Below are positions 8,827 to 26,438 of a stretch of DNA of 33,696 nucleotides, piece after piece. Under the pieces are notes generated by a model that had not been told where the DNA came from, made no database searches, and saw only the letters and a list, made by a program, of their open reading frames with translations. The stretch spans positions 1-33,696 of the IMG/VR virus record IMGVR_UViG_3300042542_003017; one strand, given 5' to 3'. This stretch comes from a virus. How positions within the stretch are numbered: the stretch's first letter is position 1; each line of letters begins with the position of its first letter. A program made the position numbers and the translations under genes.

Positions 8827-8849
8827 TTTGACACGCCCGCCGAGGCGTG
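8827..8849 (+). promoter_or_regulatory. TTTGACAC element with start-codon hairpin
   Basis: TTTGACAC (8827-8834) is followed 12 bases later by the GTG start of the connector gene. CACGCC (8832-8837) pairs with GGCGTG (8844-8849), so the GTG lies in the 3' arm of a hairpin. No Shine-Dalgarno sequence is present. It is almost identical to the element at 9118. Confidence 0.6.
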
Positions 8850-9122
8850 ACCGACCTCGACAAAATCAGCGGCGTAAAATCCTACCTCCGCCGCACCAAG
8901 ACCACCGCTGAACTTCAGGCACTCGCCGACGCGGCTTTTCTCTCCGCGTCCGAGGAAGTCACGATTACATCCATCTCTGGCGACGGCACCGCATCTAGCG
9001 GACAGGTCTCGTTTCCAAAATGGCTTCTCCTCCAAGCCCTCGAAGAAATCCTCTCCGAAGGCCCGAACGGACGCCAACTTTTCAACATCGCCGACCGCTC
9101 CCGCTACGGGACCGCCGTTTGA
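8847..9122 (+). CDS. Head-tail connector, gpW-like
   Basis: The 91-residue protein (MTDLDKISGVKSYLRRTKTT...) starts at a GTG inside a hairpin. Its size, helical N-terminal half and place between terminase and portal match lambda gpW, the connector that joins head and tail. The middle (EEVTITSISGDGTASSGQVS) looks like a beta hairpin, as in gpW. The call rests on order and plan, as sequence similarity in this family is weak. Confidence 0.55.
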   Translation: MTDLDKISGVKSYLRRTKTTAELQALADAAFLSASEEVTITSISGDGTASSGQVSFPKWLLLQALEEILSEGPNGRQLFNIADRSRYGTAV

Positions 9123-9142
9123 CACGCCCGCCTCGGCGTGTC
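9118..9142 (+). promoter_or_regulatory. TTTGACAC element with stop/start hairpin before the portal gene
   Basis: TTTGACAC (9118-9125) contains the TGA stop of the connector gene. GACACGCC (9121-9128) pairs perfectly with GGCGTGTC (9135-9142) around a 6-base loop, and the portal GTG (9138-9140) lies in the 3' arm. A ribosome finishing the connector would disrupt the stem, so the hairpin could couple portal translation to connector translation. Confidence 0.65.
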
Positions 9143-10865
9143 CGCGAAAATCAAAAAATCAAGTTGGGGTGGAACCCGCCCCGGAGCAGGCCGCCCCCGC
9201 AAGCTCGACGCCAAAGCCGCCGCGTTCGAGGCCGCCCAGCCCTCTTTAAATCGCGGCCTCATATGGGTTCCGACGACCGACCCGAAGCGCGAACTCACCG
9301 CGCACAGCCGACTTGAAATCCTCAAGGTCTCGCGCTGGCTCTACAACAACGCACCGCAGGCCACCTACATTGTCGAACACCTCGCCCAGCGCGCCATCGG
9401 CACCGGCATCGTTGTTCAGCCAAAGACCAGCAACACCGAATGGAACAAAAAGGTTGATCAGTATTTCGAAGACAGAAATTGCGCCGAGGCGTGGGCATTC
9501 GACGCCGGCGCACAGGTAAATTTTTATACCGCGCAATCGCTCATCCTCCGCCAGGTCGCCATCGACGGCGATTTCTTCGCGCAATTTTTGAAAACCAAAG
9601 AAGGCGCGGCCCGCGTCCGTTTCCTCGGCGGCGAGTCCATCGGCGGTGCCGGATCCTTCGCGAGCGACTCGCACGACGGCGTCATCCTCGACCGCTACGG
9701 CGCGCCCGTAGCCTACACGCTGAACAGCGAGAACGGCCTCCGCGTCCCTGCCGAAGACATCCTCCACTTCCGCCACATCCGCCGCCAAGGCCAACCCCGT
9801 GGCGTCTCGTGGTTTCACTCCGCCGCCGCCAACCTCCGCGACATCTCCGAAATCAACGGATTCGTTAAGGGCGCGTATAAGGCCGGCGCTCAGATCGGCT
9901 ACATGGTCACGAGCACCGAAGTCGCCAAAATCGGCTTGGGCGCTGGAATGAAAACCACCAGCAACGAAGTCGGCGACCTCACCACCAGCGACCTCCCGAA
10001 CGGCATCCTCCTCCCACGCCTCAAGCCCGGCGAAAAGCTCGAAGCCTTCAAAAACGACATTCCCGGCCAGACCTATGAAGCCGTAATGCGCGCCCTTCGA
10101 TCCGATGTTGCCTTCGCCATCGGCCTCCCGCCCGAAGCCATGATGGTCAATGTCGGCCTCGCAGGCACCGAGCAACGCGCCGTTTTGGAAGTCACGCAGA
10201 ATTTCCTCGAGCGCCTGCAACAGCAGGTCATCGATCAGTTTTGCAGGCCGTTTTACAAATACTGGTTGTGGCACGAGATGCAGGCCGGTCGCCTCGAATA
10301 CCCCGGCGATGATTGGTGGCGCCACGAATGGCTCGCCCCGCGCAAGATCACGGTTGATTCCGGCCGCGACGCCCGCGCTTACAGCGAGCAACTGGACAAA
10401 GGCCACCTCTCCCCGACCCGCTACTACAACATGCTCGGCCTCCGCGCCACCGAGGAAGAGGACGATGTCATCGACACCTACCTCCGCCGCAAAGCCAAGT
10501 GCGACGCCCTCGGCCTCGATGTTTCGCAGGTCTTCCCGAACTCCCTCCGCAACGGCATCGCCGCCCAACAACCCGCCGAGCCAGATGGGGACGAGGACGC
10601 GGAAGCCGCGCCTTCCATCGTTGACCTCCAAGCCAAAGAAAAACTCGACGCCATTGGCGTTGCCGTCCGCGCTGGCGTTTTGACGCCCGAGCAATCTCTT
10701 GAGCAGTCAGTTCGCCAATCTTTGGCTCTGCCCGAAATGGGATCGGATGTCCTGTCTGAATGGCGCGACAACCCGATCCGCTCACCGATCACTCTCAGCA
10801 GCGAACTCGCGGGCGGAGACCCCGTCACTAAACCCACTCCCGAAGACAACCCAACCGAACCATGA
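9138..10865 (+). CDS. Portal protein, lambda gpB family
   Basis: The 575-residue protein forms the dodecameric DNA channel at the head vertex. It matches the lambda-type portal family: NNAPQATYIVEHLAQRAIG near residue 75, the QSLILRQVAIDGDFFAQFL segment, the DILHFRHIRRQGQPRGVSWF motif near residue 210, and the ISEINGFVKGAYKAGAQIGY helix. Residues 1-25 hold GGTRPGAGRPRK, an AT-hook-like basic patch that also appears in the small RHH protein upstream and is unusual for a portal. The C-terminal 100 residues are acidic and probably disordered. The GTG start lies in the hairpin described at 9118. Confidence 0.93.
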   Translation: MSAKIKKSSWGGTRPGAGRPRKLDAKAAAFEAAQPSLNRGLIWVPTTDPKRELTAHSRLEILKVSRWLYNNAPQATYIVEHLAQRAIGTGIVVQPKTSNTEWNKKVDQYFEDRNCAEAWAFDAGAQVNFYTAQSLILRQVAIDGDFFAQFLKTKEGAARVRFLGGESIGGAGSFASDSHDGVILDRYGAPVAYTLNSENGLRVPAEDILHFRHIRRQGQPRGVSWFHSAAANLRDISEINGFVKGAYKAGAQIGYMVTSTEVAKIGLGAGMKTTSNEVGDLTTSDLPNGILLPRLKPGEKLEAFKNDIPGQTYEAVMRALRSDVAFAIGLPPEAMMVNVGLAGTEQRAVLEVTQNFLERLQQQVIDQFCRPFYKYWLWHEMQAGRLEYPGDDWWRHEWLAPRKITVDSGRDARAYSEQLDKGHLSPTRYYNMLGLRATEEEDDVIDTYLRRKAKCDALGLDVSQVFPNSLRNGIAAQQPAEPDGDEDAEAAPSIVDLQAKEKLDAIGVAVRAGVLTPEQSLEQSVRQSLALPEMGSDVLSEWRDNPIRSPITLSSELAGGDPVTKPTPEDNPTEP

Positions 10866-11971
10866 CCACACCCACCCCAAAATTCTATGCACTGGAAAAA
10901 TCCGACAACGGCGAGGCAACGATCCATCTCTATGATGAGGTCGGTGCTTTCGGCTCAGGCTCTAAAGAATTCCTCGCCGACCTCGGCAAGCTCGAAGGCC
11001 AACACATCCACCTCCGGATTAACTCCCCTGGCGGAAGTGTTGTCGAAGGCACGGCAATCTACAACGCCCTCCGTCGTCACAAAGGCGGCCTGACCGTTCA
11101 CATCGACGCGCTCGCCGCTTCGATGGCCTCGGTCATCGCCATGGCCGGCGCTCCCGTCTACATCGCCGACAACGCCCTGCTCATGATCCACAATCCGTGG
11201 ACCGTCAGCATGGGAGACAGCGACCAGCTCCGCCGCGAAGCCGCTCTCCTCGACAAACTCAAAGACTCCCTCCGCAACGCTTATGTCCGCAAGACCGGCA
11301 TGGAGGCTGACCGTATCGCCCAAATGATGGACGAAGAAACCTGGCTGGACGCTGTCGAAGCCGTGGCCCTCGGATTCGCCGACGCCATCGAGGAAGGCGT
11401 CGCCGCCGCAGCCACCGCGACACCCGCCCAACTCCGCGCCCGATTTGACAAGTTCGCGCAGGGCATGACCCAGCAGCCTGAAACCCAAGAGCCCACCGCT
11501 CCCGAAGTCCTCGACACCGTCGTCAGCGAATCCGCTGATTCGTCCACTCCGTCTGATTCGTCCGATTCCACGGAGCCAGCCGCCGTTCCGTCCGATTCCG
11601 TCGAGCCAACACCCGAGCCAGAGCAACCCGCTCCCGCCGAACCACAAGCTCGCGCCACCGCCGTTGACTCCATCCTTGAGAAATTCAATGCAGCGATCGC
11701 CGAGCGCGACGCAATGCGCGCTGAACTCTCCAGCGTTCGCGTCCAATTCGACCTCGTAAAAAGCGAGCTCGCCACCAAGTGCGAAGACCTCGACCGCCTC
11801 GAGCGCAGCCTCGGTCTCTCACCCGCCCGCGTCGTTCCCGCCGTCGACCAAGTGCAAGACTCCGGATCCATTTACGACCAGTGGAAAAACTCCACCGGAG
11901 CCGACAAGACCCGGATTTTCCGCGCCAACCGCAAAGCCCTCGAAGCCCACTCGAGACTCCATGGCGTTTGA
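10862..11971 (+). CDS. ClpP-type prohead protease with scaffold-like C-terminal domain
   Basis: The 369-residue protein has an N-terminal ClpP/S49-like protease (about residues 20-185) that would process the prohead. Visible markers are INSPGGSV, the nucleophile S87 in AASMAS and H110 in MIHNPW. A low-complexity linker rich in Ser, Asp, Pro and Glu (about 200-265) leads to a coiled coil (about 268-325, from VDSILEKFNAAIAERDA), which is the plan of a fused scaffold. Lambda's protease gene C contains the scaffold Nu3 as an internal start, so a similar nested product is possible. The ATG overlaps the portal stop. Confidence 0.9.
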   Translation: MTTPTPKFYALEKSDNGEATIHLYDEVGAFGSGSKEFLADLGKLEGQHIHLRINSPGGSVVEGTAIYNALRRHKGGLTVHIDALAASMASVIAMAGAPVYIADNALLMIHNPWTVSMGDSDQLRREAALLDKLKDSLRNAYVRKTGMEADRIAQMMDEETWLDAVEAVALGFADAIEEGVAAAATATPAQLRARFDKFAQGMTQQPETQEPTAPEVLDTVVSESADSSTPSDSSDSTEPAAVPSDSVEPTPEPEQPAPAEPQARATAVDSILEKFNAAIAERDAMRAELSSVRVQFDLVKSELATKCEDLDRLERSLGLSPARVVPAVDQVQDSGSIYDQWKNSTGADKTRIFRANRKALEAHSRLHGV

Positions 11972-12024
11972 CACCCAACTAATCACCGAACCCAACCACC
12001 ACCTAATCCAAACCACCCACTAAT
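11967..12024 (+). promoter_or_regulatory. TTTGACAC element and 50-nt C/A-rich leader of the capsid gene
   Basis: TTTGACAC (11967-11974) includes the protease stop codon and is followed by 50 bases made almost entirely of A and C with a few T and a single G (in CACCGAACCC), with no Shine-Dalgarno sequence and no self-complementarity. It ends at the capsid ATG. A CGAA tetramer lies 12 bases after the octamer, as in the other two long leaders. An open leader of this kind should favour loading of ribosomes. Confidence 0.6.
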
Positions 12025-12930
12025 ATGGCCACCACCATCAGCTCCGAACTCAAACTGAATGTCGTCCTCGACAGCGCCCTCATCGCGCTCCGCGAGGCAC
12101 TTCTCCCGATCAACTCCTTCTCGACCGTGTTCAACTCGGTCCCACTGCAAGGCACCGACAAAATCAGTGTTCCGTTTTTCCCTCTCGCTACTGACGCGAC
12201 GAGCGACTTCAACGGCACTTACGCATTCGGCGACACGAACGCGATCAACTCCCGCGAGATCACGGTCAACAAGCGCAAGTATCAAGCCTTGAGCTTCACC
12301 AGCTCGGAACTCGCCCGCCAGCCTTATTTCAACCCCGAGCAACTCGGATTCTTGAAGGGCCGCAAACTCGCCGAGGACATCCTCCGCGACATCCTCTCGA
12401 TCGTCACCCTCGCCAACTACGGCGCGGCGATCCACACCGGCGCGGCCTCCGCGTTCGACAGCGAGGACATGGTCAACATCAAGACCGCGCTCGACCAAGC
12501 CAAATGGAGCAAGTCCAGCCGCGTGATGATCCTCGATAACTCCTACGAAGGCGCGCTCCTCAAGGACGCTGGCATCAAGAACGCCGCCGCAGTCGGCAGC
12601 GCCACCGCGATCCAAAACGGACGCCTGCCACAGATCGCTGGCTTCGATGTTATCGGAACCAACTTGATCCCCGGCAACAGCCAGAACCTCGTCGGCATGG
12701 TCGCACTCCCCGAGTCGATCTTGGTCGCCTTCTCGCCGATCCAGCCATCACCTGGCGTGTTGAACCACCTCACCAGCTACGAGACAGCCGTTGATCCCGA
12801 GACCGGCCTCACCATCGAATACCGCGCATGGGCTGACCCTGACACGGACACCGAAAAACAAGTCCTCGAGGTCAACTACGGCTACGCCCTCGGCCACGCC
12901 GCCGCCCTCAAGCGCATCGTCAGCGCCTAA
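12025..12930 (+). CDS. Major capsid protein (HK97-like fold inferred)
   Basis: The 301-residue protein follows the protease and has the expected size for a capsid subunit. Segments typical of phage coat proteins include the TDKISVPFFPLATDATSDFN loop near the E-loop position, REITVNKRKYQALSFTSSEL, and the AEDILRDILSIVTLANYGAA helix. The DNYGY-like end (EVNYGYALGHAAALKRIVSA) resembles P22-type and related coats. The long open leader and the strong terminator after the next gene agree with very high expression. The fold is inferred from position and plan. Confidence 0.85.
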   Translation: MATTISSELKLNVVLDSALIALREALLPINSFSTVFNSVPLQGTDKISVPFFPLATDATSDFNGTYAFGDTNAINSREITVNKRKYQALSFTSSELARQPYFNPEQLGFLKGRKLAEDILRDILSIVTLANYGAAIHTGAASAFDSEDMVNIKTALDQAKWSKSSRVMILDNSYEGALLKDAGIKNAAAVGSATAIQNGRLPQIAGFDVIGTNLIPGNSQNLVGMVALPESILVAFSPIQPSPGVLNHLTSYETAVDPETGLTIEYRAWADPDTDTEKQVLEVNYGYALGHAAALKRIVSA

Positions 12931-12935
12931 GCCTG

Positions 12936-13178
12936 ATGCGCCTCGCAATCACGCTCACCCGCACCGGCAGCACTTGGAAGGTCGAAAGCCTTCCGAGTGT
13001 CCCGCTCGGCGAGCAGCTCGCAGCCTTCAAAGTCAAGCAAGTGGCCGGCGAGTTGACCGCAGACGAGACGCTCGTCGTCTCCCTCGGCGACACGCTCAAG
13101 CGCCACATCAGCAAAGCCAAACCAGCCGCTCCCGCCGTTGAGGTGGAAGTCGAAGAGTCACCAAAGAAAAAGAAGTAA
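12936..13178 (+). CDS. Small protein after the capsid gene, possible head decoration or fibre
   Basis: The 80-residue product (MRLAITLTRTGSTWKVESLP...) has a small beta-rich front and a tail EVEVEESPKKKK of mixed charge. It lies 5 bases after the capsid stop and before the terminator, so it is co-transcribed with the capsid. Genes in this place are often head fibres or neck proteins; I do not recognise the family. Confidence 0.65.
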   Translation: MRLAITLTRTGSTWKVESLPSVPLGEQLAAFKVKQVAGELTADETLVVSLGDTLKRHISKAKPAAPAVEVEVEESPKKKK

Positions 13179-13214
13179 TTCCCGCAAAGCGCCCGCACCG
13201 CGCTCCTCGCCCGC

Positions 13215-13257
13215 AAAAGCCCTCGCCGTTCTCACTCACGGCGGGGGCTTTTCTTTT
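13215..13257 (+). terminator. Rho-independent terminator after the capsid cassette
   Basis: AAAAGCCCTCGCCG (13215-13228) pairs with CGGCGGGGGCTTTT (13239-13252), a 14-bp stem with a single G-U pair and a 10-base loop, followed by CTTTT. This is the strongest terminator seen in the window. It ends the highly expressed capsid unit; read-through must still feed the neck and tail genes downstream. Confidence 0.85.
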
Positions 13258-13279
13258 GACACGCCGCAAGGTTCGTGTC
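13255..13279 (+). promoter_or_regulatory. TTTGACAC element with start-codon hairpin
   Basis: TTTGACAC (13255-13262) overlaps the T-tract of the terminator. GACACG (13258-13263) pairs with CGTGTC (13274-13279) around 10 bases, and the GTG start of the next gene (13275-13277) is in the 3' arm. The octamer-to-start spacing is 12 bases, the same as at 8827 and 9118. Confidence 0.55.
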
Positions 13280-13595
13280 GCCCACCGCTCGCAATGCCCT
13301 CGCTCTCCGCTCCGCGCAACTGCGCCAAAGCGCCCACGGCACGCCCGTAAAATTCCGCCAGGCTGAGATCCGCGTCTGCCTCGCCCCCGTCTCCATCGGC
13401 CTCGACCTCGAGACCGGCGGCCTCCGCCAAGGCGGTGAGTTTTCGATCCGTTTCCTTGCCGCCGACCTGCAAAGCCCACCGCGCCGAGGCGAAGCCGTCA
13501 CCTTCAGCGCCAAGACTTACTTCATCAGTCAGGTCTCCGAAACAAACAGCCCCGGCGAATACCTCGCCACCATGTCGCCAGGAGGTGCCGCGTGA
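13275..13595 (+). CDS. Neck protein, probable head-closure or head-tail joining protein
   Basis: The 106-residue product begins at GTG (MSPTARNALALRSAQLRQSA...) and is beta-rich in its second half (GEAVTFSAKTYFISQVSETN), with an AGxxW-like plan seen in small head-closure proteins. Its position between capsid and tail tube and its size support a neck role. The GTG start is set by the hairpin and by the lack of an alternative ATG. The next gene overlaps its stop. Confidence 0.55.
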   Translation: MSPTARNALALRSAQLRQSAHGTPVKFRQAEIRVCLAPVSIGLDLETGGLRQGGEFSIRFLAADLQSPPRRGEAVTFSAKTYFISQVSETNSPGEYLATMSPGGAA

Positions 13596-13999
13596 ACATA
13601 CCCGTCGAGTCCTCCCTCGCCGCATGGCTCCGCAGCCAGCCAGCCTTTGACGGCATCCCCGTCCACACCGGCCAGAGCGCCGACACGATCCCGCAGGATC
13701 AGAGCGTCCTTCTCGCCGGGTGCGAATCCACCGAAGCCGTGGCCCGTGGATTCTACAAGGCGACCGCGAGCATCGTGCTGGTCACTCCCTCCGTCATCGA
13801 AGGATCCCTCGAAGCGCACGCCGCCCTCGCCGAATCCCTCCGCGCCTCCCTGCTTTCCGCCACCGATCTCGCCGACGCCTTCGCGCCCGACCTGACCCTC
13901 GCCGGCGCCGACCTCCGCTCGGTCGATGACACGCAATCCGACGGCCGGTGGGTCACCACCGCCGCGCTGACCATCGCCTTCACGACCTCCGGCATTTGA
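13592..13999 (+). CDS. Probable tail terminator / neck protein
   Basis: The 135-residue product (GTG start, MNIPVESSLAAWLRSQPAFD...) has the N-terminal helix, central strand with hydrophobic run (ATASIVLVTPS) and C-terminal strand (WVTTAALTIAFTTSG) of small tail-terminator proteins. It lies just before the tail tube gene, the usual place for a tail terminator. The assignment is positional. Its TGA stop is part of a TTTGACAC element. Confidence 0.55.
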   Translation: MNIPVESSLAAWLRSQPAFDGIPVHTGQSADTIPQDQSVLLAGCESTEAVARGFYKATASIVLVTPSVIEGSLEAHAALAESLRASLLSATDLADAFAPDLTLAGADLRSVDDTQSDGRWVTTAALTIAFTTSGI

Positions 14000-14053
14000 C
14001 ACGCGCCTCCCTTCCGAAACCCGCAACCAAACCAACCCAACTCCACCACCACC
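13995..14053 (+). promoter_or_regulatory. TTTGACAC element and 51-nt C/A-rich leader of the tail tube gene
   Basis: TTTGACAC (13995-14002) holds the stop of the previous gene. The following 51 bases are C/A-rich, unstructured and SD-less, ending CCACCACCACC before ATGGCC. As in the capsid leader, CGAA follows the octamer by 12 bases. Confidence 0.6.
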
Positions 14054-14422
14054 ATGGCCGCAACTCTCTATCGCTCATCCGCAGTATCCACAGCCGAATA
14101 TGGCACGCCAACCGTGTCAGGCATCATATGCACCAGCTTCAGTGTCAACGAAACCGCATCGCTCTCAGAGGTCAAGGATGATCAGGGAGGGGTGGTTGCG
14201 GTGGCCATGTCGGAAGTGATCAAAGAAATTTCGATCGAGGGCATGCGCACCGGCTCATTCACCGCAACCGTCGGCAGCGCGCTCAGCGTCACGATGCCCG
14301 CCTCCGTGGATCTCGGAGCGACGACCATCGTCACCGGCCTCACCAGCAACTTCGCCGCCGAGCAGTTCGAGACCGTTTCTCTGACCGCCCGCTCCTACGA
14401 GACCGCGATGACCGCTTCCTAA
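14054..14422 (+). CDS. Major tail tube protein
   Basis: The 122-residue protein (MAATLYRSSAVSTAEYGTPT...) is nearly all beta strand with Thr/Ser/Val alternation, the plan of a single-domain tail tube subunit. It lies between the neck genes and the tail chaperones and carries the same type of leader as the capsid gene, consistent with a many-copy structural protein. A strong hairpin follows it. There is no sheath gene nearby, which argues for a siphovirus tail. Confidence 0.7.
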   Translation: MAATLYRSSAVSTAEYGTPTVSGIICTSFSVNETASLSEVKDDQGGVVAVAMSEVIKEISIEGMRTGSFTATVGSALSVTMPASVDLGATTIVTGLTSNFAAEQFETVSLTARSYETAMTAS

Positions 14423-14441
14423 GCCCGCACCCGCACCCAGC

Positions 14442-14471
14442 GCCCGGCGCGTGTGATTCACCGCGCCGGGC
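14442..14471 (+). terminator. Strong hairpin after the tail tube gene
   Basis: GCCCGGCGCG (14442-14451) pairs perfectly with CGCGCCGGGC (14462-14471), and the loop itself contains GTG-ATT-CAC. No T-tract follows, so it may stabilise or process the mRNA or lower expression of the downstream tail genes rather than end transcription fully. Confidence 0.6.
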
Positions 14472-14486
14472 TCCCTACGAAAAATC

Positions 14487-14888
14487 ATGACAAAACCTCT
14501 CGCTGTTTTCAGCACCCGCGACCTCAAGCTCGCCACCATCCTCCTCACGCTCGGCTTCGAACCCGAAAACCCCGCCGCCCCCGCCACGCGCATCCGCCGC
14601 GATTCCGGCGACGAGACGACCGTTTTTCATTTCCTCGCCAACCATCCCACCAGCGGACAGCAGGCCAATCAGGTCATGGAGTGGTTCCGCGATGCCGACA
14701 TTTTCTTGGAGAAAAACCCCGAGCACCCGGTCGCCTACCTCATCGCCGCCCTCCGCAACCGCGACGCCCTCGTTTCGGTCGTCAAAGCCACCCCCCGCCA
14801 ACTCGTTTTCCAGCGCAACGGCAAGATCGTGAGCATCTCCGAGAACGCCACCGAAGCCGACAAGAAGCGGTTCGCCAAATTTCTATGA
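14487..14888 (+). CDS. Tail-region hypothetical protein, DUF5659-like N-terminus
   Basis: The 133-residue product begins MTKPLAVFSTRDLKLATILL. The sequence FSTRDLxLA-hydrophobic-LGF is typical of a small family I associate with DUF5659, proposed from memory. The rest mentions no known motif. It is coupled by ATGA to the tail chaperone gene. Confidence 0.6.
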   Translation: MTKPLAVFSTRDLKLATILLTLGFEPENPAAPATRIRRDSGDETTVFHFLANHPTSGQQANQVMEWFRDADIFLEKNPEHPVAYLIAALRNRDALVSVVKATPRQLVFQRNGKIVSISENATEADKKRFAKFL

Positions 14889-15301
14889 AAAAACAAAACG
14901 ACAAATCCACCACCAACGAAACCCTCGAAACCGACGACGAAGTCCTCCGCGAGCAGGCCATGCGCGACGGCACCAAGCGCGTCGGCAAGTTCAAGCTCCG
15001 CCCATGCGTCCCCGGCACGATCTCCATCATCCGATCGAACCTCCTCGAGAAGCGCGATGAGTTCTGGTTCGTCGCCGCCTTCGCATTCGTCCACACCGCG
15101 CCGATCGAGGACATACTCGCCGTGGACAGCGACCCCGAGGAATTCAACCGCGCCGTCCGCCGCTGGCAGCTCGAGAACATCGCCGACCTAGACGACCAAA
15201 ACGAACTCTCCAAGCTCGTCTCCGCCGCCTGGGATCGCGTGAACGCCGCCGAGACCAAGGCCAAGAACCCCTCCACCGGAAGCCCCACCTCGGGGGAGTA
15301 G
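14885..15301 (+). CDS. Tail assembly chaperone (lambda G analogue)
   Basis: The 138-residue product (MKKQNDKSTTNETLETDDEV...) is acidic and helical, lies between tail tube and tape measure, and ends in a flexible STGSPTSGE tail. It should coat the tape measure protein during tail assembly. A GGGGG run directly before its TAG stop and an open -1 frame beyond it suggest that part of the ribosomes make a longer product (see the next entry). The ATG overlaps the previous stop. Confidence 0.75.
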   Translation: MKKQNDKSTTNETLETDDEVLREQAMRDGTKRVGKFKLRPCVPGTISIIRSNLLEKRDEFWFVAAFAFVHTAPIEDILAVDSDPEEFNRAVRRWQLENIADLDDQNELSKLVSAAWDRVNAAETKAKNPSTGSPTSGE

Positions 15302-15522
15302 CATCCCCCAACTGGCTTGCATCCTATGTCTACCGCCTCGCAAGCATCACCGGTTGGGGGTTTCACGAGTGCATGTGGCAAATCCCCTTTGCTGCCGGGC
15401 TCCAAATACTGGACGCCGATTCATTCCAGCATGGCGTTCCTCGCCTATATCTACGCCGCAATCCGAACGCGGATTTTGACTCCCTCGCGGCAATAGAAAG
15501 CGCCTTCGAGAAAATCAAATGA
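15295..15522 (+). CDS. -1 frameshift extension of the tail assembly chaperone (lambda T analogue)
   Basis: The -1 frame past the chaperone stop is open for 75 codons and reads like real protein: ASPNWLASYVYRLASITGWG followed by FHECMWQIPFAAGLQILDA, with the aromatic and Pro pattern of tail chaperone T domains. It has no start codon of its own near the junction and ends in a TGA overlapping the next ATG. A slip on GGG at 15293-15295 would fuse it to the upstream product and give about 212 residues. This is the classic arrangement of lambda G/GT. The exact slippery site is inferred, since the G run is not a perfect X-XXY-YYZ heptamer. Confidence 0.75.
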   Translation, partial: GVASPNWLASYVYRLASITGWGFHECMWQIPFAAGLQILDADSFQHGVPRLYLRRNPNADFDSLAAIESAFEKIK

Positions 15523-16373
15523 GCAACGCCACCATACAAATCGAATCGACCGGCCTCGAGGAGATGTTTCGCTTTTATGGCGCGGTGAAGCAAAAGACTT
15601 TGCCGGATACGCTTCGCATCCACGCTCGTCTGCTCTGTGTCGAACTCGCTCGCCGCACGCAGCCATTTGGCGACAAATCCGGCGGCAAAAAGATCGGCGA
15701 GAAAGCCATTGCAAAAGACATCTATGGCGGTCGTCGAAGCAGCACTAAAGGCAAAGGCCGCGCCGGTCTTTTTGCTCATGTCACGCCTCTTCAACTTGTT
15801 TACATGGACACTGTGAGCGATACTGCGGATATCTTTGTCCATGCCACAAAAGACGGCAAAGTCTATGGCGTTGATCGGGCGCACTTCGTTCCAGATGCGA
15901 CGCCTTCTTGGATTAGAGGCATTCATAAAAACCATTTTGTGAATGGTCGAATGAGTGCCGCCGGGGGTGACACTCACAATATTGGCCGCTGGAAATTCAT
16001 AAATAAATACTTCGTGCCAAAGTCAGCTTTGGAAGAATTTGTCGCAGCACAATACGCCAAGGTCGGCATTGCAAAATCCGGTTGGGCATGGTGCGCGAAG
16101 CAGTTGAAAAATCCAGTGAAAGGCAGTGCCACGCGAGGGATTCCCAAATGGGTCACGCGGCACCTTGGCGATTACGGACTCGGGCGTGTCGAAGACAATG
16201 CGGATGATCAGGTAAATCCCAGAATCACGCTCACAAATACCACCAAATACGCCGACAAGGTTTGCCGTGAGTCCGAGCGCGATGTCGCCGTGGTGATCGT
16301 CGTTCAAAAGATGGTCAAACAACTCGCCAATATTCTGCGCTACGAGCGCAAACAACTCCAGAAAGCCGCCTGA
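15519..16373 (+). CDS. Tail-region protein of unknown function
   Basis: The 284-residue product (MSNATIQIESTGLEEMFRFY...) lies between the chaperones and the tape measure. An early HARLLCVELARRTQPFGDKS segment recalls HK97 gp10-type minor proteins, but the length is about double. It is basic and has scattered aromatic residues. Base use is clearly more AT-rich than its neighbours, with A- and T-ending codons, which suggests separate acquisition. The start overlaps the frameshift product's stop. Confidence 0.7.
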   Translation: MSNATIQIESTGLEEMFRFYGAVKQKTLPDTLRIHARLLCVELARRTQPFGDKSGGKKIGEKAIAKDIYGGRRSSTKGKGRAGLFAHVTPLQLVYMDTVSDTADIFVHATKDGKVYGVDRAHFVPDATPSWIRGIHKNHFVNGRMSAAGGDTHNIGRWKFINKYFVPKSALEEFVAAQYAKVGIAKSGWAWCAKQLKNPVKGSATRGIPKWVTRHLGDYGLGRVEDNADDQVNPRITLTNTTKYADKVCRESERDVAVVIVVQKMVKQLANILRYERKQLQKAA

Positions 16374-16376
16374 CCT

Positions 16377-18719: not shown

Positions 18720-18721
18720 CC

Positions 18722-19432: not shown

Positions 19433-19698
19433 CGCTCCCCGTCGATTTCGAGGCGCTCGCCCGCGCTGCAAAAAATGCCAGCGGCGGCGGCTATCCAGTG
19501 CAAATTTCCGCCGCAGACCTCATGCGGAATTTCAATTTTGCCGCACTGGATGCCGACCCCTCGCTCATCGAGACCACCACCGGCGCAGGAGGCCATACAG
19601 CTCGCCGCTTGGCGATACCTGCACCGCCAGGCGGCGGCACCCATGTCCTCGGCGCGGTGGATGGCGCGCTGGCGTGGATCGCCACAGAGGAATGCTGA
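19429..19698 (+). CDS. Small tail-tip protein of unknown function
   Basis: This 89-residue product (MTLPVDFEALARAAKNASGG...) ends LAWIATEEC with a terminal cysteine. It has Gly-rich stretches and no clear motif. It is coupled by overlap to the upstream tail gene and lies one base before the next ATG. A tail-tip role is inferred from position. Confidence 0.65.
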   Translation: MTLPVDFEALARAAKNASGGGYPVQISAADLMRNFNFAALDADPSLIETTTGAGGHTARRLAIPAPPGGGTHVLGAVDGALAWIATEEC

Positions 19699-19699
19699 C

Positions 19700-20140
19700 A
19701 TGGTTCTTGGCCGCTCGACCTCCGGTGCCATCAAAATCAAAACCGACGAAGAAGGCGGCGGCCTTCGCGCCGTGGGTTGCGCGTGTTGTGTGACGCTGGT
19801 CTGTGGATGCTCTCCCATGTCTGCCGCCGTGAAAACTGCCATCGCTTCGGCCACGCAAGTCACCGTTAACGGAAATTCACAAGCATGGAATGGATCAAAT
19901 GCGTCATCTATTCAACTGCCTCCAACATTAAGCTGGTATATTACATACAACGCCGGAATTCTCTGCTTTCTTGGCGACAACGGCGACAACACCGTCAAAC
20001 TTTTACCCGAGCCGTTGACGATGCCGGAATGCGGGGGATTACCGTTTTCATCAACTGAAACCATCACGATCCAAGGCGAAGCCTACCGCTCTTTGAATAT
20101 CTTTAGCTTCCCTCTGCCCGTGACGATTTCATTTTCCTAA
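19700..20140 (+). CDS. Cysteine-rich tail-tip protein of unknown function
   Basis: The 146-residue product has a dense cysteine cluster early on (VGCACCVTLVCGCSPM, about residues 25-40) that could bind a metal or an Fe-S cluster, and then a beta-rich body. Lambda gpL, in the same genome position, also carries an Fe-S site, so a similar tail-tip role is conceivable. I chose the ATG one base after the previous stop; longer versions would overlap the previous gene. Confidence 0.6.
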   Translation: MVLGRSTSGAIKIKTDEEGGGLRAVGCACCVTLVCGCSPMSAAVKTAIASATQVTVNGNSQAWNGSNASSIQLPPTLSWYITYNAGILCFLGDNGDNTVKLLPEPLTMPECGGLPFSSTETITIQGEAYRSLNIFSFPLPVTISFS

Positions 20141-20424
20141 TGTTCCCCTCTGCCGCCACTCTCGCCCACCACGCCGAGCTTTTAGCGCGATTCGGTCTCT
20201 CTGCTGCAAATTTCGCGGCCTCCGGATTCTTGACCACCCCACCCGAAGCCCTCGCCGCCCGCGAAGCCACCTGCCGCGCCTGCCCGGAGTGGGACGACGC
20301 CGCACTGAACGCCACCGGCCGCTGCCGCAAGTGCGGCTGTAGCACTTGGGCGAAATTGCGAATGGCCACCGAGCGCTGTCCGCTTGGCAAGTGGGAAACC
20401 GTCTCCGAGCCGCTCCAGAAATAG
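20140..20424 (+). CDS. Zinc-ribbon protein
   Basis: The 94-residue product has a helical N-terminal half and then ATCRACPEWDDAALNATGRC-RKCGC...RCPLGKW, with C45, C48, C62, C65, C67 and C80 available as metal ligands. The C-x2-C ... C-x2-C-x-C ... K ... CP-x-GKW plan matches small zinc-ribbon proteins found in many phages (DUF6171-like, from memory). It overlaps the previous stop (TAATG). Its place in the tail block suggests a tail role. Confidence 0.75.
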   Translation: MFPSAATLAHHAELLARFGLSAANFAASGFLTTPPEALAAREATCRACPEWDDAALNATGRCRKCGCSTWAKLRMATERCPLGKWETVSEPLQK

Positions 20425-20441
20425 CTCGGAGAGTCGCCTGA

Positions 20442-20471
20442 TTTGACACCCATGCCGCAAGCAGCGGCATG
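20442..20471 (+). promoter_or_regulatory. TTTGACAC element with ATG-containing hairpin before the fibre gene
   Basis: TTTGACAC (20442-20449) is followed by CATGCCGC (20451-20458), AAGCA, and GCGGCATG (20464-20471), a perfect 8-bp stem. The fibre gene's ATG (20469-20471) is the last codon of the 3' arm. This repeats the start-codon hairpin design seen at 8827, 9118 and 13255 with different stem sequence. Confidence 0.65.
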
Positions 20472-22100
20472 AAACTCTTCCTCGACTCCAAAGCCCGGCG
20501 ATTCATCAAATCGGCCGCGAGCAATGTCGCATTGCAGACGCTCGTCCTCAAACGCCGCGACCAAGTCCCCATCGAGGTCGTGTTTGTCGAGAACGGCGTG
20601 GCCGTCTCGCCCGTCACAGGCACCCAGACCACCGTCGCCCTCAAGACCTCTTTTTCCGACGCCAATTTTCTAGCTCTGGCGGCCCCCGGTCAAACAATTC
20701 TCGATCTGAATACATTGCCGGTCGAGGGCGCATTCTCCTCCGATCCTGCCAGCATCGCCGCCTTCCTCGAGATCCGCTGGACCGCACCGAGCCAGGCATT
20801 GCGCACCGCCACGCTCCAAGTCGAAGTTCAAAACTCCGTCATCCTCGGAGACGAGCAGACCCCCGCCGCCCTCCCAGACGGCAAAGCCACCCAAGCCGAA
20901 GCCGAAGCCGGAACGGACAACGCAAAATGGATGACGCCGCTCCGAACGGCGCAGGCCATCGCCGAACTCGCCCCACCGCCCACCTGGGAGAGCGTCACCG
21001 GAAAGCCAACCGAGTTCCCGCCATCGACTCACACGCACACCGCCAGCCAGATCACCGATTTCGCCAGCGCCGTCGTCGCCGTCTCCCCGCCCGTTGATTG
21101 GTCATCCCTGACCGGCAAGCCAACGACCTTCGCACCTTCCGCCCACACGCACCTCAAGAGCGAGATCACCGGCCTCGATGCCGACCTCGCCGCCCTTGCC
21201 ACCGAAGACACCGCCCTCGGCCAGAGGATCGACTACCTCGCCGCGAATCTGGACCCTGCCGCGCTGGATTCGATTGCCGAAGCAGCCGCCGCGATCGGCA
21301 CCCTCCAGTCCGAAATCGACGGCAAAGCCACCGCCGCCCAAGGCGCTCTCGCCGACACCGCCCTCCAGCCCGAGCCCGTCGATTACCAAGGCGCCTACAA
21401 CAACGGCGCGGACTATTTCCCCGGCCAAGTCGTCAGCTACAACGGCGAACTCTACATCCGCATCGGCGAACCGAATCCCGGCTACCCACCGCCTGGCAGT
21501 TACTGGGCTGTCTTCGATCCATCGGCCTCGCCCGCATTCAAGCTCTGGGTCGAGCTTTCCAAGGCCGACACGATCCACACCCACGCCGCAACCGAGATCA
21601 CCGGCCTTTCGTCCTACATCATCGCTGCCGCCCCCGGCCTGCAAATCAACACAACGGTCCGCATCGGCGACGGCATCTCGACCACCTTCCCAATCGACGG
21701 CCTCGTCAGCTCTGACCCCGAGCATGTCCTCGTCGCCCTCAACGGCGTCGCGCAAACCCCCACCACCGACTACCTCGTTTCGGAAGCCACCGGCACGATC
21801 ACCTTCGACTCCGCGCCCGCCGCCGGAATGCAAATCTCCTGCACCGCCCTCGGCCTCCGCACCGTCCAGCCCCCGATCGACCCGACCCTCTACCTCTACG
21901 CCTTCGACCAATCCAGCGACGGCCTCACCACCTACAGCGGCCGACTCCTAAACGCCGACCGCCCCGCCGCGCCAGCCCTGCCCGAGACCGCCACCACCTG
22001 GACCATCCGCCGCAGCACCCTCAACGCCGCAGGCCAAATCCTCGCCACCGCCTCAGCCGTCGGCTCGTGGGCTAACCGGGAGACTCTCGTCTACGCATGA
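20469..22100 (+). CDS. Tail fibre with GKPT...HTH repeats
   Basis: The 543-residue product is a probable receptor-binding fibre. Residues about 175-240 hold two copies of W-x-S-[VL]-TGKPT-x-F-x-PS-x-HTH, and a shorter HTHAATEITG element follows near 375; such His-rich repeats bind metal inside trimeric fibre shafts. The last 65 residues (LYLYAFDQSSDGLTTYSGRL ... SWANRETLVYA) are repeated, with changes, in the protein encoded at 23359. The N-terminal 150 residues are beta-rich and may attach to the tail. Its ATG lies in a hairpin. Confidence 0.8.
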   Translation: MKLFLDSKARRFIKSAASNVALQTLVLKRRDQVPIEVVFVENGVAVSPVTGTQTTVALKTSFSDANFLALAAPGQTILDLNTLPVEGAFSSDPASIAAFLEIRWTAPSQALRTATLQVEVQNSVILGDEQTPAALPDGKATQAEAEAGTDNAKWMTPLRTAQAIAELAPPPTWESVTGKPTEFPPSTHTHTASQITDFASAVVAVSPPVDWSSLTGKPTTFAPSAHTHLKSEITGLDADLAALATEDTALGQRIDYLAANLDPAALDSIAEAAAAIGTLQSEIDGKATAAQGALADTALQPEPVDYQGAYNNGADYFPGQVVSYNGELYIRIGEPNPGYPPPGSYWAVFDPSASPAFKLWVELSKADTIHTHAATEITGLSSYIIAAAPGLQINTTVRIGDGISTTFPIDGLVSSDPEHVLVALNGVAQTPTTDYLVSEATGTITFDSAPAAGMQISCTALGLRTVQPPIDPTLYLYAFDQSSDGLTTYSGRLLNADRPAAPALPETATTWTIRRSTLNAAGQILATASAVGSWANRETLVYA

Positions 22101-22324
22101 CAACGATCACCGAATCCAACATCACGCAGACGCTCGATCTCTCCTCGTTCGACCTCACCCTGCCAGGCATCGTCGTCGAGTATCCCACCCGCTCCAATTT
22201 CCCGAGCGTCGGAAAATCCGACCGCCTCTACATGGCCCTCGACGAAGGCATGCCCTACCGATGGAGCCCCACCGCATTGGCCTACGCCCTCATGATTCCC
22301 ATCATCGATGCGGGTAATTTTTGA
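22097..22324 (+). CDS. Small tail-region protein of unknown function
   Basis: The 75-residue product (MTTITESNITQTLDLSSFDL...) overlaps the fibre stop by ATGA and ends with a TGA lying inside a TTTGACAC element. It may be a fibre chaperone or adaptor by position. No family is recognised. Confidence 0.65.
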   Translation: MTTITESNITQTLDLSSFDLTLPGIVVEYPTRSNFPSVGKSDRLYMALDEGMPYRWSPTALAYALMIPIIDAGNF

Positions 22325-22379
22325 CACTCACCCCACCACGAACAGCCAAAACCAAAACCACCAACACACCTAATTAGTC
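22320..22379 (+). promoter_or_regulatory. TTTGACAC element and 52-nt C/A-rich leader of a fibre gene
   Basis: TTTGACAC (22320-22327) contains the stop of the previous gene; 52 bases rich in C and A follow (AGCCAAAACCAAAACCACC within it), SD-less and unstructured, to the ATG. CGAA lies 11 bases after the octamer, matching the capsid and tail tube leaders. Confidence 0.6.
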
Positions 22380-23273
22380 ATGCCTAATCCTATCATTCGC
22401 ATCAAACGCGGTTCCGGCACGCCGGTCTCGCTTCAAGTCGGGGAAGTAGCCTTCGACTCCACAAACAAGTCATTTTTCATCGGCACAGCCGAAGGCGTCC
22501 TGCCAATCGGCGGCGAGCACATCTTCGCAAAGAAGACCTTTGTTTCTGACGCAGTCGCAGCCGAGGCTTCGCTTCGCTCCGCAGCGGATTCGACCCTCAC
22601 CAGCAACCTCAATTCCGAGATCAGCCGCGCCACCGCAGCTGAAGGCGTCATCGCCGCAAACCTCGCAACTGAGATCAGCGACCGTGCCGCAGCGATCAGC
22701 TCAGAAGCCTCCGCTCGCTCCAGCGCAGACACGACCCTCGACGGCAAGATCACCGTCGAGAAAGGCCGAATTGATGCGATCCTCAGCGCCGCTGATGCCG
22801 ACAAAGACAGCTTCGCCGAGATCGTCAGCTTGATCAATTCGGTCGACACGACCAACGATTCCGCATTCGCAGGTTATGTAACCTCGAACAACGCAGCCCT
22901 CGCATCCGAAGTCTCGAGCCGCACCAGCGCCGACACAGCCCTCGGTGGCCGCATCGACACAGCCGAGTCCGCCGCGACAGCCCTCGCCACCCGCGTCACC
23001 GCAGCAGAGGCCGACATCAACACCGAAGAGTCCGCACGCGCAGCCGCCGACACGACTCTGCAGTCGAACATCACCGCCGAAGCAAGCACACGCTCCAGCG
23101 CTGACACGACTCTGCAAAGCAACATCACAGCCGAAGCCACCACCCGCGCTTCTGCCGACACCAGCTTGCAGACGAATATCACTAGCGAGGCAACCGCCCG
23201 CGCCAGTGCAGACGACGCGCTCGACGCTCGCCTGGACAGCCTCGAGGCCAGCATCGACGGCGGAACTTACTAA
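22380..23273 (+). CDS. Tail fibre with repetitive coiled-coil shaft
   Basis: The 297-residue product starts MPNPIIRIKRGSGTPVSLQV then GEVAFDSTNKSFFIGT, an N-terminal module shared in outline with the protein at 23359 and seen in phage receptor-binding proteins. From about residue 55 it becomes a long repetitive shaft of 15-residue units such as RSSADTTLQSNITAEA, giving a likely trimeric coiled coil. The DNA repeats as well as the protein, so it could change length by recombination. Strong expression is suggested by its C/A-rich leader. Confidence 0.8.
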   Translation: MPNPIIRIKRGSGTPVSLQVGEVAFDSTNKSFFIGTAEGVLPIGGEHIFAKKTFVSDAVAAEASLRSAADSTLTSNLNSEISRATAAEGVIAANLATEISDRAAAISSEASARSSADTTLDGKITVEKGRIDAILSAADADKDSFAEIVSLINSVDTTNDSAFAGYVTSNNAALASEVSSRTSADTALGGRIDTAESAATALATRVTAAEADINTEESARAAADTTLQSNITAEASTRSSADTTLQSNITAEATTRASADTSLQTNITSEATARASADDALDARLDSLEASIDGGTY

Positions 23274-23283
23274 GACCGCAACC

Positions 23284-23328
23284 ACTCCCCGGCGGGGCGG
23301 CCAATGCCGCCTCGCCAAGCGGGGGAGT
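23284..23328 (+). terminator. Long hairpin after the fibre gene
   Basis: ACTCCCC (23284-23290) pairs with GGGGAGT (23322-23328), and inside it GGCGGGGCGGC (23291-23301) pairs with GCCGCCTCGCC (23306-23316) with one G-U pair and a CAAT loop. It is very stable but is followed by TAAAAATC rather than a T-tract, so its role may be mRNA stabilisation or partial termination. Confidence 0.65.
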
Positions 23329-23358
23329 TAAAAATCTCCGCTGAATAAAAAAAGGCCC

Positions 23359-23739
23359 ATGCCAAACCCAACCATCATTCCGAAAAAGTCGGTCCAAGCC
23401 TCAGCCATACCGACGACCTCGCAGCTCGCCCTCGGCGAGATTTGCGTGAACCACGCCGACCGACGCATCTACTCGCGCAACCCCTCCACCGGCGAAGTCT
23501 ACAAGCTGGCCGGCACCAAAGACGCACCAGACCGAGTATGGTCTTTTGATATTTCGAGCGACGGCACCACCACCTTCCTCGGCTTCCTCCTTTACGCCGA
23601 CTTTCCCAACAACGGCAGCGTCTACGACTCCGAGTCCTGGGAAATCTCGAGGACAATTTTCAACGCCGCAGGCACCTCCAGCACCGAATCCAGCGCCACC
23701 GGCGCGTGGTCGAACAAAACCTCCCTCCAATTTTCTTAA
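23359..23739 (+). CDS. Short fibre-like protein, composite of two other fibres
   Basis: This 126-residue protein looks like a mini-fibre. Its first 50 residues (MPNPTIIPKKSVQASAIPTT ... LGEICVNHADRRIY) correspond to the start of the fibre at 22380. Its last 65 (WSFDISSDGTTTFLGFLLYA ... GAWSNKTSLQFS) correspond to the end of the fibre at 20469, with FD-x-SSDG-x-TT, LL-x-AD, NAAG and G-x-W-x-N shared. It contains the attachment and tip modules with no shaft between them. Confidence 0.75.
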   Translation: MPNPTIIPKKSVQASAIPTTSQLALGEICVNHADRRIYSRNPSTGEVYKLAGTKDAPDRVWSFDISSDGTTTFLGFLLYADFPNNGSVYDSESWEISRTIFNAAGTSSTESSATGAWSNKTSLQFS

Positions 23740-23757
23740 ACCCAAAAACCAAAAACC

Positions 23758-24042
23758 ATGAACGCTACCAACCCCATCGAAATCGCAGGAGTCCAATACC
23801 CGAAATTCTCGCTCAACTTGGCCATATCGGGCCGGTATCTAGGCGATGGTTCTTCAGACGCTTGCATTAACCTGCTCCTCACCCCCACACGCATTGAGGC
23901 GGGGGAGGTCATCACCGCGCCAGAAGCGTCAATCAGTCTCCTTCGCGGGAGTTTGAACGAGGTCACTGACCCCGCAGAGCAAGCCGCCATCGGTGCGATC
24001 CAAGCCGCGCTTCAAAACCTCCTCGCCGCGAAAGGACTCTAA
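23758..24042 (+). CDS. Tail-region hypothetical protein
   Basis: This 94-residue product (MNATNPIEIAGVQYPKFSLN...) has a beta-rich first half and a helical end (AAIGAIQAALQNLLAAKG). It follows an A/C-rich SD-less leader (AACCAAAAACCATG). I do not recognise the family. It sits 3 bases before the large spike gene and may be its partner. Confidence 0.65.
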   Translation: MNATNPIEIAGVQYPKFSLNLAISGRYLGDGSSDACINLLLTPTRIEAGEVITAPEASISLLRGSLNEVTDPAEQAAIGAIQAALQNLLAAKGL

Positions 24043-24045
24043 GCC

Positions 24046-26145
24046 ATGGCACTCATCGTATCTGCCGCAACAGGCAATTTTAACGCAGGAGCAACTTGGG
24101 TCGGCGGGGTCGTGCCGACCATTGGTGATGAAGCCCGCGCCTCGACGGGTCACACAATCACCATCACCGCAAATGCAACTTGCGATGAAGTCAGTAACGC
24201 AGGCACCGGTATTTTTACGCTGAACGATGGCATCACACTTACCGCCAATGTCACCAATAAAACGGCAACCGCTTCACGCGCCTGTATGCAATTTACGGCG
24301 TTATCCCCTGCGGTTGGAACAATCGTTGGGAATGTAACGAGCGGGCCAGCGGCCAGCACGATTGGTATTAACAATGTTAACACTGGCACTGTCAATATTA
24401 CTGGGAATGTAACCGGCGGAAGTGCGTCCACTGCATATGGAGCTTACAATTCAGCCACAGGCACAATTACCATAACGGGGAATGCAACCGGCGGAAGTGG
24501 CGCATCGTCCCACGCTGTGCAGGGTCAAGGAAACGGCACAATTACCATAACGGGAAATGCCACAGGCACAGTTGGATTTGGCGCAAACAATGTCGGCACC
24601 GGAACGATTACAATTTATGGAATCGCCACAGGCGGAAGTTCCGCCGTCGGCATCAACAATGCCTCGACTGGAACGGTCAATCTCGGTCGCGCAAAAGGTA
24701 ACACATATGGTCCCGGCAACACCAGCGGCCTTGTCGCAACAGTCGGCGCGGCAAACGCTGGCGTCGGGGTTATCGAAATCGAGCAACTCGAATACGGCAC
24801 ATTCGGCCAATCGCCAACAAGCGGCACAGGCATCCGGCTCAAGAAAGCTGGAAGCAATCTCGCTGTCTTTAATTTCTGCGACACCGCAGGCGCAAAGACT
24901 CTCATCGACGCAACGCAAAACGCAGCGATGCCAGCCGCCACCGATGTGCGCAGCGGCGTGAGCTACGCGAGCGGGGCGCTAACAGGCACATGCGCAGTCC
25001 CAGCCGCAGGGTCAGTGGCGCTGGGAGTCCCAGTAGGCGCAGGCTTTGGAACTGCTGTCCTCACGCCAGAAGCCGTTTGGGGCGCATCCACACGCACTCT
25101 GACAGCAGGCGCAGGCATCAGCGCCTCGGATGTGTGGGACTACGCAACTCGGTCGCTCACGACATCGAGCGGGCCGACTGCCGTCCAAATCCGGCAGGAA
25201 ATGGACAGCAACTCAACCAAGCTCGCCAACCTCGACGCCAGCATCTCGAGCCGTCTCGCCACCTCGGGATACACCGCCCCGACATCCGCCCCGAGCGTCT
25301 CCGACATCCGCACTGAGCTGTCCGTGGAACTCGGTCGCCTGGATGCCTCGGTGTCATCGCGTTTGGCAAGTGCGTCCTACACAGCGCCGACAACACCACC
25401 CACAGCAGCACAGATCGCAACGGCGGTTGAAGGATCGCTCCTCAACGAGGCAGACGGCCAAGCAGTCCTCAACGCCATCGTCGGCGCCATCGGGAACACC
25501 AACCTCAGCGAAGTCTCGCTCGTCGCCGCAGTCCGCGCCGACCTCGAGCGCAACGGCGGAAAGCTCGACAGCATCCCCACCGATGCCGCTCCGAGCGCGG
25601 CCTCTGTGGCAACAGCCGTCTGGTCCGCAAGCACCAAGGAAATCACCGGCGGCACGGTCACGACATTGACCAACTCGCCCGATGTGCCGACCGAATCCGA
25701 AATCGCCGCCCAAGTCCGCACCGAGCTCTCGGTCGAACTCGGCCGCATCGATGCCGCCGTCTCCAGCCGCCTCGCGCCATCCGGCACCTTGGCGACCGTC
25801 ACGACATTGACCAACGCACCCACCGTCCCAACCGCAGCCGCCATCGCCGACGAGGTGCGCGTGGAACTCGCCACCGAACTGGCTCGCCTCGACGCCCCGG
25901 TCAGCGGCGCAACAGCCCCAAGCGCCGCCACCGTGGCCACGGCAGTCCGCTCCGAGCTTTCGGTCGAGTTGGCCCGAGTCGACCAAGCCGTGAGCACCCG
26001 CCTCGCCGGTTCGGCCTACACGGCGCCAGCAAACAGCGATGTCGCCGCGATAAAAACGAAGACCGACGCAATCAATGTGGATCGCATCAACAACACCGCG
26101 ACCACGGCCATTGTCGGGAATCTTTTAGCTCAGGCGAATAGCTAA
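24046..26145 (+). CDS. Large tail fibre/spike with beta-helix-like repeats
   Basis: The 699-residue product is a probable receptor-binding spike. Residues about 90-220 contain at least five rungs of the form GT-[IV]-x-I-TGN-[AV]-TGG-S spaced by about 22-27 residues, typical of a right-handed beta-solenoid. Then come WGASTRTLTAG and VWDYATRSLT near residue 350, a motif pair found in several phage tail proteins. From about 380 to the end there are repeated IR-x-ELSVELGRLDASVSSRL units giving a helical shaft. The rung DNA is more AT-rich than the shaft DNA. Confidence 0.8.
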   Translation: MALIVSAATGNFNAGATWVGGVVPTIGDEARASTGHTITITANATCDEVSNAGTGIFTLNDGITLTANVTNKTATASRACMQFTALSPAVGTIVGNVTSGPAASTIGINNVNTGTVNITGNVTGGSASTAYGAYNSATGTITITGNATGGSGASSHAVQGQGNGTITITGNATGTVGFGANNVGTGTITIYGIATGGSSAVGINNASTGTVNLGRAKGNTYGPGNTSGLVATVGAANAGVGVIEIEQLEYGTFGQSPTSGTGIRLKKAGSNLAVFNFCDTAGAKTLIDATQNAAMPAATDVRSGVSYASGALTGTCAVPAAGSVALGVPVGAGFGTAVLTPEAVWGASTRTLTAGAGISASDVWDYATRSLTTSSGPTAVQIRQEMDSNSTKLANLDASISSRLATSGYTAPTSAPSVSDIRTELSVELGRLDASVSSRLASASYTAPTTPPTAAQIATAVEGSLLNEADGQAVLNAIVGAIGNTNLSEVSLVAAVRADLERNGGKLDSIPTDAAPSAASVATAVWSASTKEITGGTVTTLTNSPDVPTESEIAAQVRTELSVELGRIDAAVSSRLAPSGTLATVTTLTNAPTVPTAAAIADEVRVELATELARLDAPVSGATAPSAATVATAVRSELSVELARVDQAVSTRLAGSAYTAPANSDVAAIKTKTDAINVDRINNTATTAIVGNLLAQANS

Positions 26146-26414
26146 TGAGCACAGAAGTTGTCCGAAACAGACCAGGTGTAAAAATGAGCGTCGGCGAGTT
26201 CATCGCCGCGCTCGCCCTGGTGGCAACCGTCTTCTCGGCCTCCCAAGCGTGGTGGATTCTTCCCGAAAAAGTGAATCGCGTTGAAATCGAAAACGAAAAG
26301 CAGGAGCAGCGACTGCAAAAGATCGAATCCACCGCCGCCGACCGCGCCGAGACTTTGGCCCGCATCGATGAGCGCACAAAGCGCATCGAGCAAATCCTCG
26401 CCAACCGTCCGTGA
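26145..26414 (+). CDS. Membrane-anchored coiled-coil protein, i-spanin-like
   Basis: The 89-residue protein has one membrane segment at about residues 17-38 (FIAALALVATVFSASQAWWI) and then a continuous charged coiled coil to the end, the plan of an inner-membrane spanin with the coil in the periplasm. It opens the lysis cassette, and a lipoprotein gene lies 185 bases downstream. A holin accessory is the alternative. The start overlaps the spike stop (TAATG). Confidence 0.65.
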   Translation: MSTEVVRNRPGVKMSVGEFIAALALVATVFSASQAWWILPEKVNRVEIENEKQEQRLQKIESTAADRAETLARIDERTKRIEQILANRP

Positions 26415-26417
26415 GGC

Positions 26418-26438
26418 TTTGACACCACCGCCCATTCG
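26418..26438 (+). promoter_or_regulatory. TTTGACAC element before the holin gene
   Basis: TTTGACAC (26418-26425) is followed after 13 bases by the ATG of the holin-like gene. The spacing matches the GTG genes at 8847, 9138 and 13275, but no start-codon hairpin is evident here. Confidence 0.5.

Follow-up and report, generated by a model that had tools for sequence, protein, structure and literature searches.

Our comparative analysis points to the short sequence TTTGACA(C) as the recognition element of a phage-specific late promoter, with a copy where nearly every late transcription unit begins, and on the sequence evidence we regard this as the likely explanation of its distribution. In a large group of uncultured phages TTTGACA probably marks the position at which late messages begin, which would often coincide exactly with the start codon.

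The window analysed here, i.e. the whole stretch of 33,696 nucleotides from the IMG/VR virus record IMGVR_UViG_3300042542_003017, carries identical ends (1-127 and 33570-33696) and is therefore probably a complete genome of about 33.6 kb, with genes for primase, integrase, terminase, portal, Clp-type protease, major capsid, tail and endolysin. Neither an Rfam family nor a tRNA gene turned up when the window was scanned. The region 4640-4870, just upstream of the terminase genes, encodes a protein of 76 aa in which an NrdR-type zinc ribbon was recognised (E=2e-6).

The octamer TTTGACAC was recounted exactly at the eight positions listed in the initial annotation (8827, 9118, 11967, 13255, 13995, 20442, 22320 and 26418), all of them on the + strand and none on the - strand, compared with 0.62 copies expected and a maximum of 2 in 100 dinucleotide shuffles. 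The spacings of 12, 12, 12, 13, 19 and 50, 51, 52 bases to the start codon were likewise exact, and the TGA of the octamer forms the stop codon of the preceding ORF at five of the eight sites (8831, 9122, 11971, 13999 and 22324). The element marks gene junctions that have a gap and is missing where starts overlap and are translationally coupled, and the early genes of the window lack it. Some of the first claims had to be refined: the absence of copies inside gene bodies holds for the exact octamer but not for its one-base variant TTTGACAA at 11444, which lies inside the protease gene; the octamer is real, but the fully conserved core in relatives is TTGACA with a preferred T at its 5' side and C at its 3' side; and the two spacing groups belong to one distribution with a sharp minimum at 12. 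Two readings of the TGA-containing sequence were rejected, translational coupling by the UGA stop because three of the eight sites end no ORF and some sites follow a terminator or a tRNA, and a prfB-like +1 frameshift at TTTGAC because three of the eight end no ORF and the TTT GAC of the nested site is read as sense codons.

The distance d from TTGACA plus one base to the start codon, determined for 291 non-redundant TTGACA sites, was 11 at no site, 12 at 62, 13 at 32, 14 at 19 and 15 at 12 sites, followed by a tail and by a second group at d=43-52, and such a sharp left edge at d=12 is the pattern expected from a fixed message start. In ten genomes or contigs, 55 TTGACA sites had a distance of 12-15, against 1.7 for permuted hexamers. 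Alignment on TTGACA revealed the preference for T 5' and C 3' of the core in all classes, with C at offset 6 in 59-73% of sites in all five spacing classes, six or seven nucleotides before a pyrimidine-purine step, the position of which tracks TTGACA and not the start codon. This step occupied offsets 12/13 in 67% of the d=14-18 sites versus 26% of the background (P=3e-9) and offsets 13/14 in the long class (P=2e-7), P values that overstate certainty and independence, since the longest ORF determined the assigned start codon and the sites share ancestry. Weighted by family, a step at 12/13 or 13/14 was present in 24.5 of 28 downstream families, and shifted controls gave 28-65%. Sites of the long class carry CGAA(A)CC at the position of the step, followed by a G-poor leader. 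The choice of start codon was also linked to the spacing: GTG was used at 47 of 60 sites with d=12 versus 4 of 121 with d>=14, and was almost confined to sites where the start codon begins with the purine of the step. C-G was the commonest predicted -1/+1 pair, hence the start codon seems to be chosen by initiation preference.

The same observations bear on an unlikely alternative, in which UUUGACAC serves translation initiation on late mRNAs in a host that does not use Shine-Dalgarno sequences, with the 30S subunit or a phage factor binding it and setting the distance to the start. Such a role would agree with the absence of Shine-Dalgarno enrichment before both host genes and these phage starts, with the occurrence at gapped and not at coupled junctions, with the minimum spacing of 12 and with the presence of the element at the nested start. 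However, long-leader starts lie 40-52 nt away and yet have CGAA at a fixed offset, the position of the purine is set by TTGACA rather than by the start codon, GTG, a weaker start, is favoured precisely at d=12, and neither host genes nor the early genes of the window use the element.

In the compact late promoter that we propose, the element would span roughly positions -20 to -13 relative to the RNA 5' end, and transcription would start at the purine, usually G after C, 13-14 nt past TTGACA. Late genes would be switched on through this element, with a phage-encoded factor and the host RNA polymerase as its putative reader. A start codon that begins with this purine would yield a leaderless mRNA. 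This is predicted for gene 8847-9122, the GTG of which coincides with the predicted 5' end 8847 of the octamer at 8827..8834 (+), its TGA being the stop of 8616-8831; for the portal gene with its GTG at the predicted 5' end 9138 (octamer 9118..9125, +, TGA as the stop of 8847-9122); and for gene 13275-13595 with its GTG at the predicted 5' end 13275 (octamer 13255..13262, +). Short leaders of 1-8 nt would arise at the tail fibre gene (octamer 20442..20449, +; predicted 5' end 20463; 6-nt leader AGCGGC to ATG 20469) and at the first gene of the lysis block (octamer 26418..26425, +; predicted 5' end 26438; 1-nt leader to ATG 26439). Long leaders of about 37-40 nt, G-poor, unstructured and beginning with CGAA(A)CC, would precede three further genes: major capsid, where the octamer at 11967..11974 (+) contains the protease stop and the G-poor leader would extend over 37 nt from 11988 (CCGAACCC) to ATG 12025; the gene at 14054, where the octamer at 13995..14002 (+) contains the stop of 13592-13999 and a 38-nt leader would run from 14016 (CCGAAACCC) to ATG 14054; and the gene at 22380, where the octamer at 22320..22327 (+) contains the stop of 22097-22324 and a 40-nt leader would run from 22340 (CGAACAGCC) to ATG 22380.

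A TTTGACT variant at 15475..15481 (+), near the end of the frameshifted ORF and conserved in relatives, is a candidate only; it has C at offset 6 and TA at its predicted 5' end 15495, which would leave a 24-nt leader to ATG 15519. TTTGACT is possibly a weaker form of the element. Most one-base variants of TTTGACA in the ten genomes or contigs were more strand-balanced and lacked the downstream bases, and TTTGACA itself occurred there 86 times forward versus 5 times reverse. The frameshifted region (14480-15522) comprises two overlapping frames, an ORF ending at 15301 and a frame that ends at 15522 and has no good start; they meet at CTCGGGGGAGTAG near 15285-15300, probably through a -1 frameshift of the tail assembly chaperone.

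As already pointed out in the initial annotation, no sigma70-type -10 box follows TTGACA. It is thus very improbable that the sites are ordinary sigma70 promoters with TTGACA, a perfect -35 hexamer, as the -35 box: a -10 was missing at the usual distance (16-18 nt) at every site, the base profile of 165 sites showed no second upstream element, and the start would fall within the coding region, which in gene 8847 is indicated by a synonymous AGC/TCC serine change at codon 8 and by the GTG 12 nt past the octamer being the only usable start. The stretch from -12 to -7 is GC-rich and thus unfavourable for melting, which counts against the late promoter proposed here.

Terminator-like hairpins abut 15 of the 62 d=12 sites versus 0.9% of random windows, and one hairpin resembling an intrinsic terminator (about 13216-13257) lies directly before the octamer at 13255 of the window. 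In two related phages a tRNA-Met gene is located between capsid and gene 13275 (L107, 11293-11365; L096, 5440-5512); it is flanked by terminator-like hairpins and copies of TTTGACAC, and in L107 the tRNA end lies directly before the element. Inverted repeats before the start, such as CATGCCGC/GCGGCATG between the octamer at 20442 and ATG 20469, were strong in the d=12 and d=19-20 classes and absent in the d=13-18 and long classes. An RNA hairpin was rejected as the common element, since the repeats are missing from these other spacing classes; if the predicted 5' ends are right, the repeats are located for the most part ahead of the transcribed region and would function at the DNA level. Processing of long transcripts by an endonuclease that cuts 13-14 nt downstream of UUUGACAC and frees leaderless late messages would explain the fixed 5' point, the leaderless starts and the tRNA neighbour equally well, and at many sites an inverted repeat directly precedes the cut point. 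We nevertheless consider this quite unlikely, as terminators directly upstream would leave little precursor and inverted repeats are missing in the d=13-18 and long classes; we know of no nuclease with such a cleavage specificity 13-14 nt past UUUGACAC. The abutting terminator-like hairpins, the tRNA end before a site and the absence of the element from the early genes of the window support a promoter beyond its geometry.

The nested site in the head maturation protease gene (TTTGACA followed by A, 11444..11450, +) lies 13 nt upstream of an in-frame ATG at its predicted 5' end 11465, which opens an ORF of 168 aa (11465-11971, +) covering the C-terminal part of the Clp-type protease gene. In relatives this site has the codons TTT GAC Axx and behaves like the other sites. 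The Phe of the RFD motif was encoded by TTT in every distinct RFD sequence, whereas the next Phe was mostly TTC, and the residue after Phe-Asp varied between K, T, S and N, yet the first base of its codon was always A. This codon pattern indicates nucleotide-level selection inside the coding region. In phage lambda, an in-frame internal start in the protease gene C gives rise to the C-terminal scaffold Nu3. The nested in-frame start and the C-terminal, scaffold-type product are alike here, and by this analogy the product of 11465-11971 is a probable scaffold protein; unlike in C/Nu3, the internal start carries the late-gene TTTGACA element, which would drive the scaffold-like product.

Conservation at equivalent junctions was evident among loci whose terminase or capsid is related to that of the window: about 110 contigs carry 429 forward and 10 reverse copies of TTTGACAC, a count in which some loci overlap within one contig. 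The octamer recurs at equivalent places in relatives ahead of gene 8847, portal, capsid, 13275, 14054 and the fibre gene. The core (T)TTGACA is kept even in phages with a portal only 24-29% identical, and in phages with 24-30% portal and terminase identity TTGACA is found 12-20 nt before starts. Genes common to almost all motif-bearing phages are structural or packaging genes. A relative with 87% capsid identity sits in a MAG named Verrucomicrobia bacterium REEB449, and a second genome related to it has two hairpin-type copies, one identical to that at 8827 and one to that at 9118. The 2.6 Mb REEB449 MAG contains 29 copies of the octamer, 8 of them on the phage contig, and 21 of the reversed control, i.e. 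background elsewhere; the octamer was near background in 39 related genomes, and TTGACA was not enriched upstream of 170 host ORFs. The enrichment before host genes expected of a Verrucomicrobia promoter or ribosome signal was therefore not found. The octamer being at background in the MAG outside the phage contig and unenriched before host starts, the signal is a property of the phages.

The initial annotation had offered three interpretations and is partly supported. Best supported among them is control by a phage-specific transcription factor, given the fixed C and pyrimidine-purine step, the GTG link, terminators or a tRNA upstream of some sites, the restriction to late genes and the lack of host use; an RNA-processing or translation signal has weaker support. 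A mobile-sequence boundary was not borne out: homology breaks upstream of the site of gene 8847, but most other sites lie within continuous homology. In the window (8570-8830) and before gene 8847 in relatives, the octamer marks the end of non-homologous cassettes that contain repeated words of the CTCCGTG type (CCTCTGTGTCCTCCGTGGTTAAA).

The search for a reader of the element yielded one weak candidate. Single-subunit (T7-like) RNA polymerase (PF00940) had no match in ten genomes including the window, although the positive control set was likewise matchless; sigma region 4 had no match in the window phage, and the large ORFs of the window have other assigned functions or resemble tail genes. 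A helix-turn-helix protein (3587..4219, +) has homologues in most motif-bearing phages, is the only widely shared regulator-like gene in them and might be the trans-acting late regulator, but its HTH is generic, and phages that share the octamer differ in the recognition helix of this protein. Its structure model was of modest confidence (pLDDT 71, pTM 0.36) and had no significant match in the PDB, the top hits being sigma factors at E about 0.1, which is not evidence. As to the repressors of the L5 gp71/TipsytheTRex family, the profile of the 3587-4219 family gave a weak, generic HTH match to the Cluster A immunity repressor 7r6r (E=0.008). This match would suit stoperators, i.e. asymmetric one-directional sites at which an immunity repressor blocks prophage transcription, as in mycobacteriophage L5, and the short asymmetric sites in one orientation within short intergenic gaps resemble those described for Cluster A phages (PMC9283540, PMC6550527). 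This explanation also appears improbable to us: a KorA-domain protein scores better than the repressor, and stoperators need no fixed start distance, no fixed purine or C and no GTG link. Cluster A sites are genome-wide rather than late-only as here, and the available parts of these papers describe neither a link to start codons nor one to a purine at a set position (PMC9283540, PMC6550527).

None of the compared systems matches the element fully; it is SAS/stoperator-like in layout and AR9-like in logic. The SAS/ESAS of Cluster K mycobacteriophages, whose function is unresolved, are 13 bp long, lie 3-9 bp from the start and mostly outside structural genes, some copies with inverted repeats (PMC3203893, PMC11373665). 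Like our sites, they are short, asymmetric and phage-specific repeats that immediately precede many gene starts and share one orientation; however, the site described here is at least 12 nt from the start, belongs to late genes and has a fixed downstream purine, and the SAS consensus GGGATAGGAGCCC within 3-9 bp of the start was not found, the sequence being another and the minimum spacing 12. Late promoters of phage AR9 follow AACA-N6-T(A/G), the last base being the start, and are used by the phage's own multisubunit RNA polymerases, with leaders of at least 26 nt and with some copies inside ORFs that possibly yield truncated proteins (PMC5312081). Short element, fixed spacer, pyrimidine-purine start, late genes and intra-ORF copies are common to both, and the fixed pyrimidine-purine downstream of a short element typical of phiKZ/AR9 was found here as a sequence signature; in contrast to AR9, the spacer here has double the length, many messages would lack a leader and no polymerase was found.

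The element might, tentatively, assign a new class of late promoters to a broad group of uncultured phages, some of them in Verrucomicrobia genomes: a single element at about -20 to -13, neither -10 nor -35, with fixed C-G initiation and mostly leaderless or short-leader late mRNAs, read by the host RNA polymerase with a phage factor and also used for a nested scaffold gene. Against such a promoter, no bacterial holoenzyme is known to rely on a principal contact at -20 to -13 in place of a -10 or -35. A literature search found no earlier papers on this motif. If true, the model would make the late genes of a large group of uncultured phages easy to map, would allow exact message ends and nested genes to be predicted from nothing but the sequence, and would suggest leaderless translation in a phylum with little-studied gene expression. 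The old puzzle of one-directional, start-associated phage repeats becomes testable, as the model gives 5' ends to the base.

Other repeats were observed among the relatives. The motif is missing from Akkermansia phage Moulinsart (L275), a distant relative whose host has been isolated; another recurrent sequence, about AGAGACGG.GGGGA.ATA, precedes several gene starts of this phage (2770-2808, 4640-4684, 10590-10632 and 15300-15339). In L119 one strand carries the word GGATCCAC 23 times and the other only once, a separate repeat.
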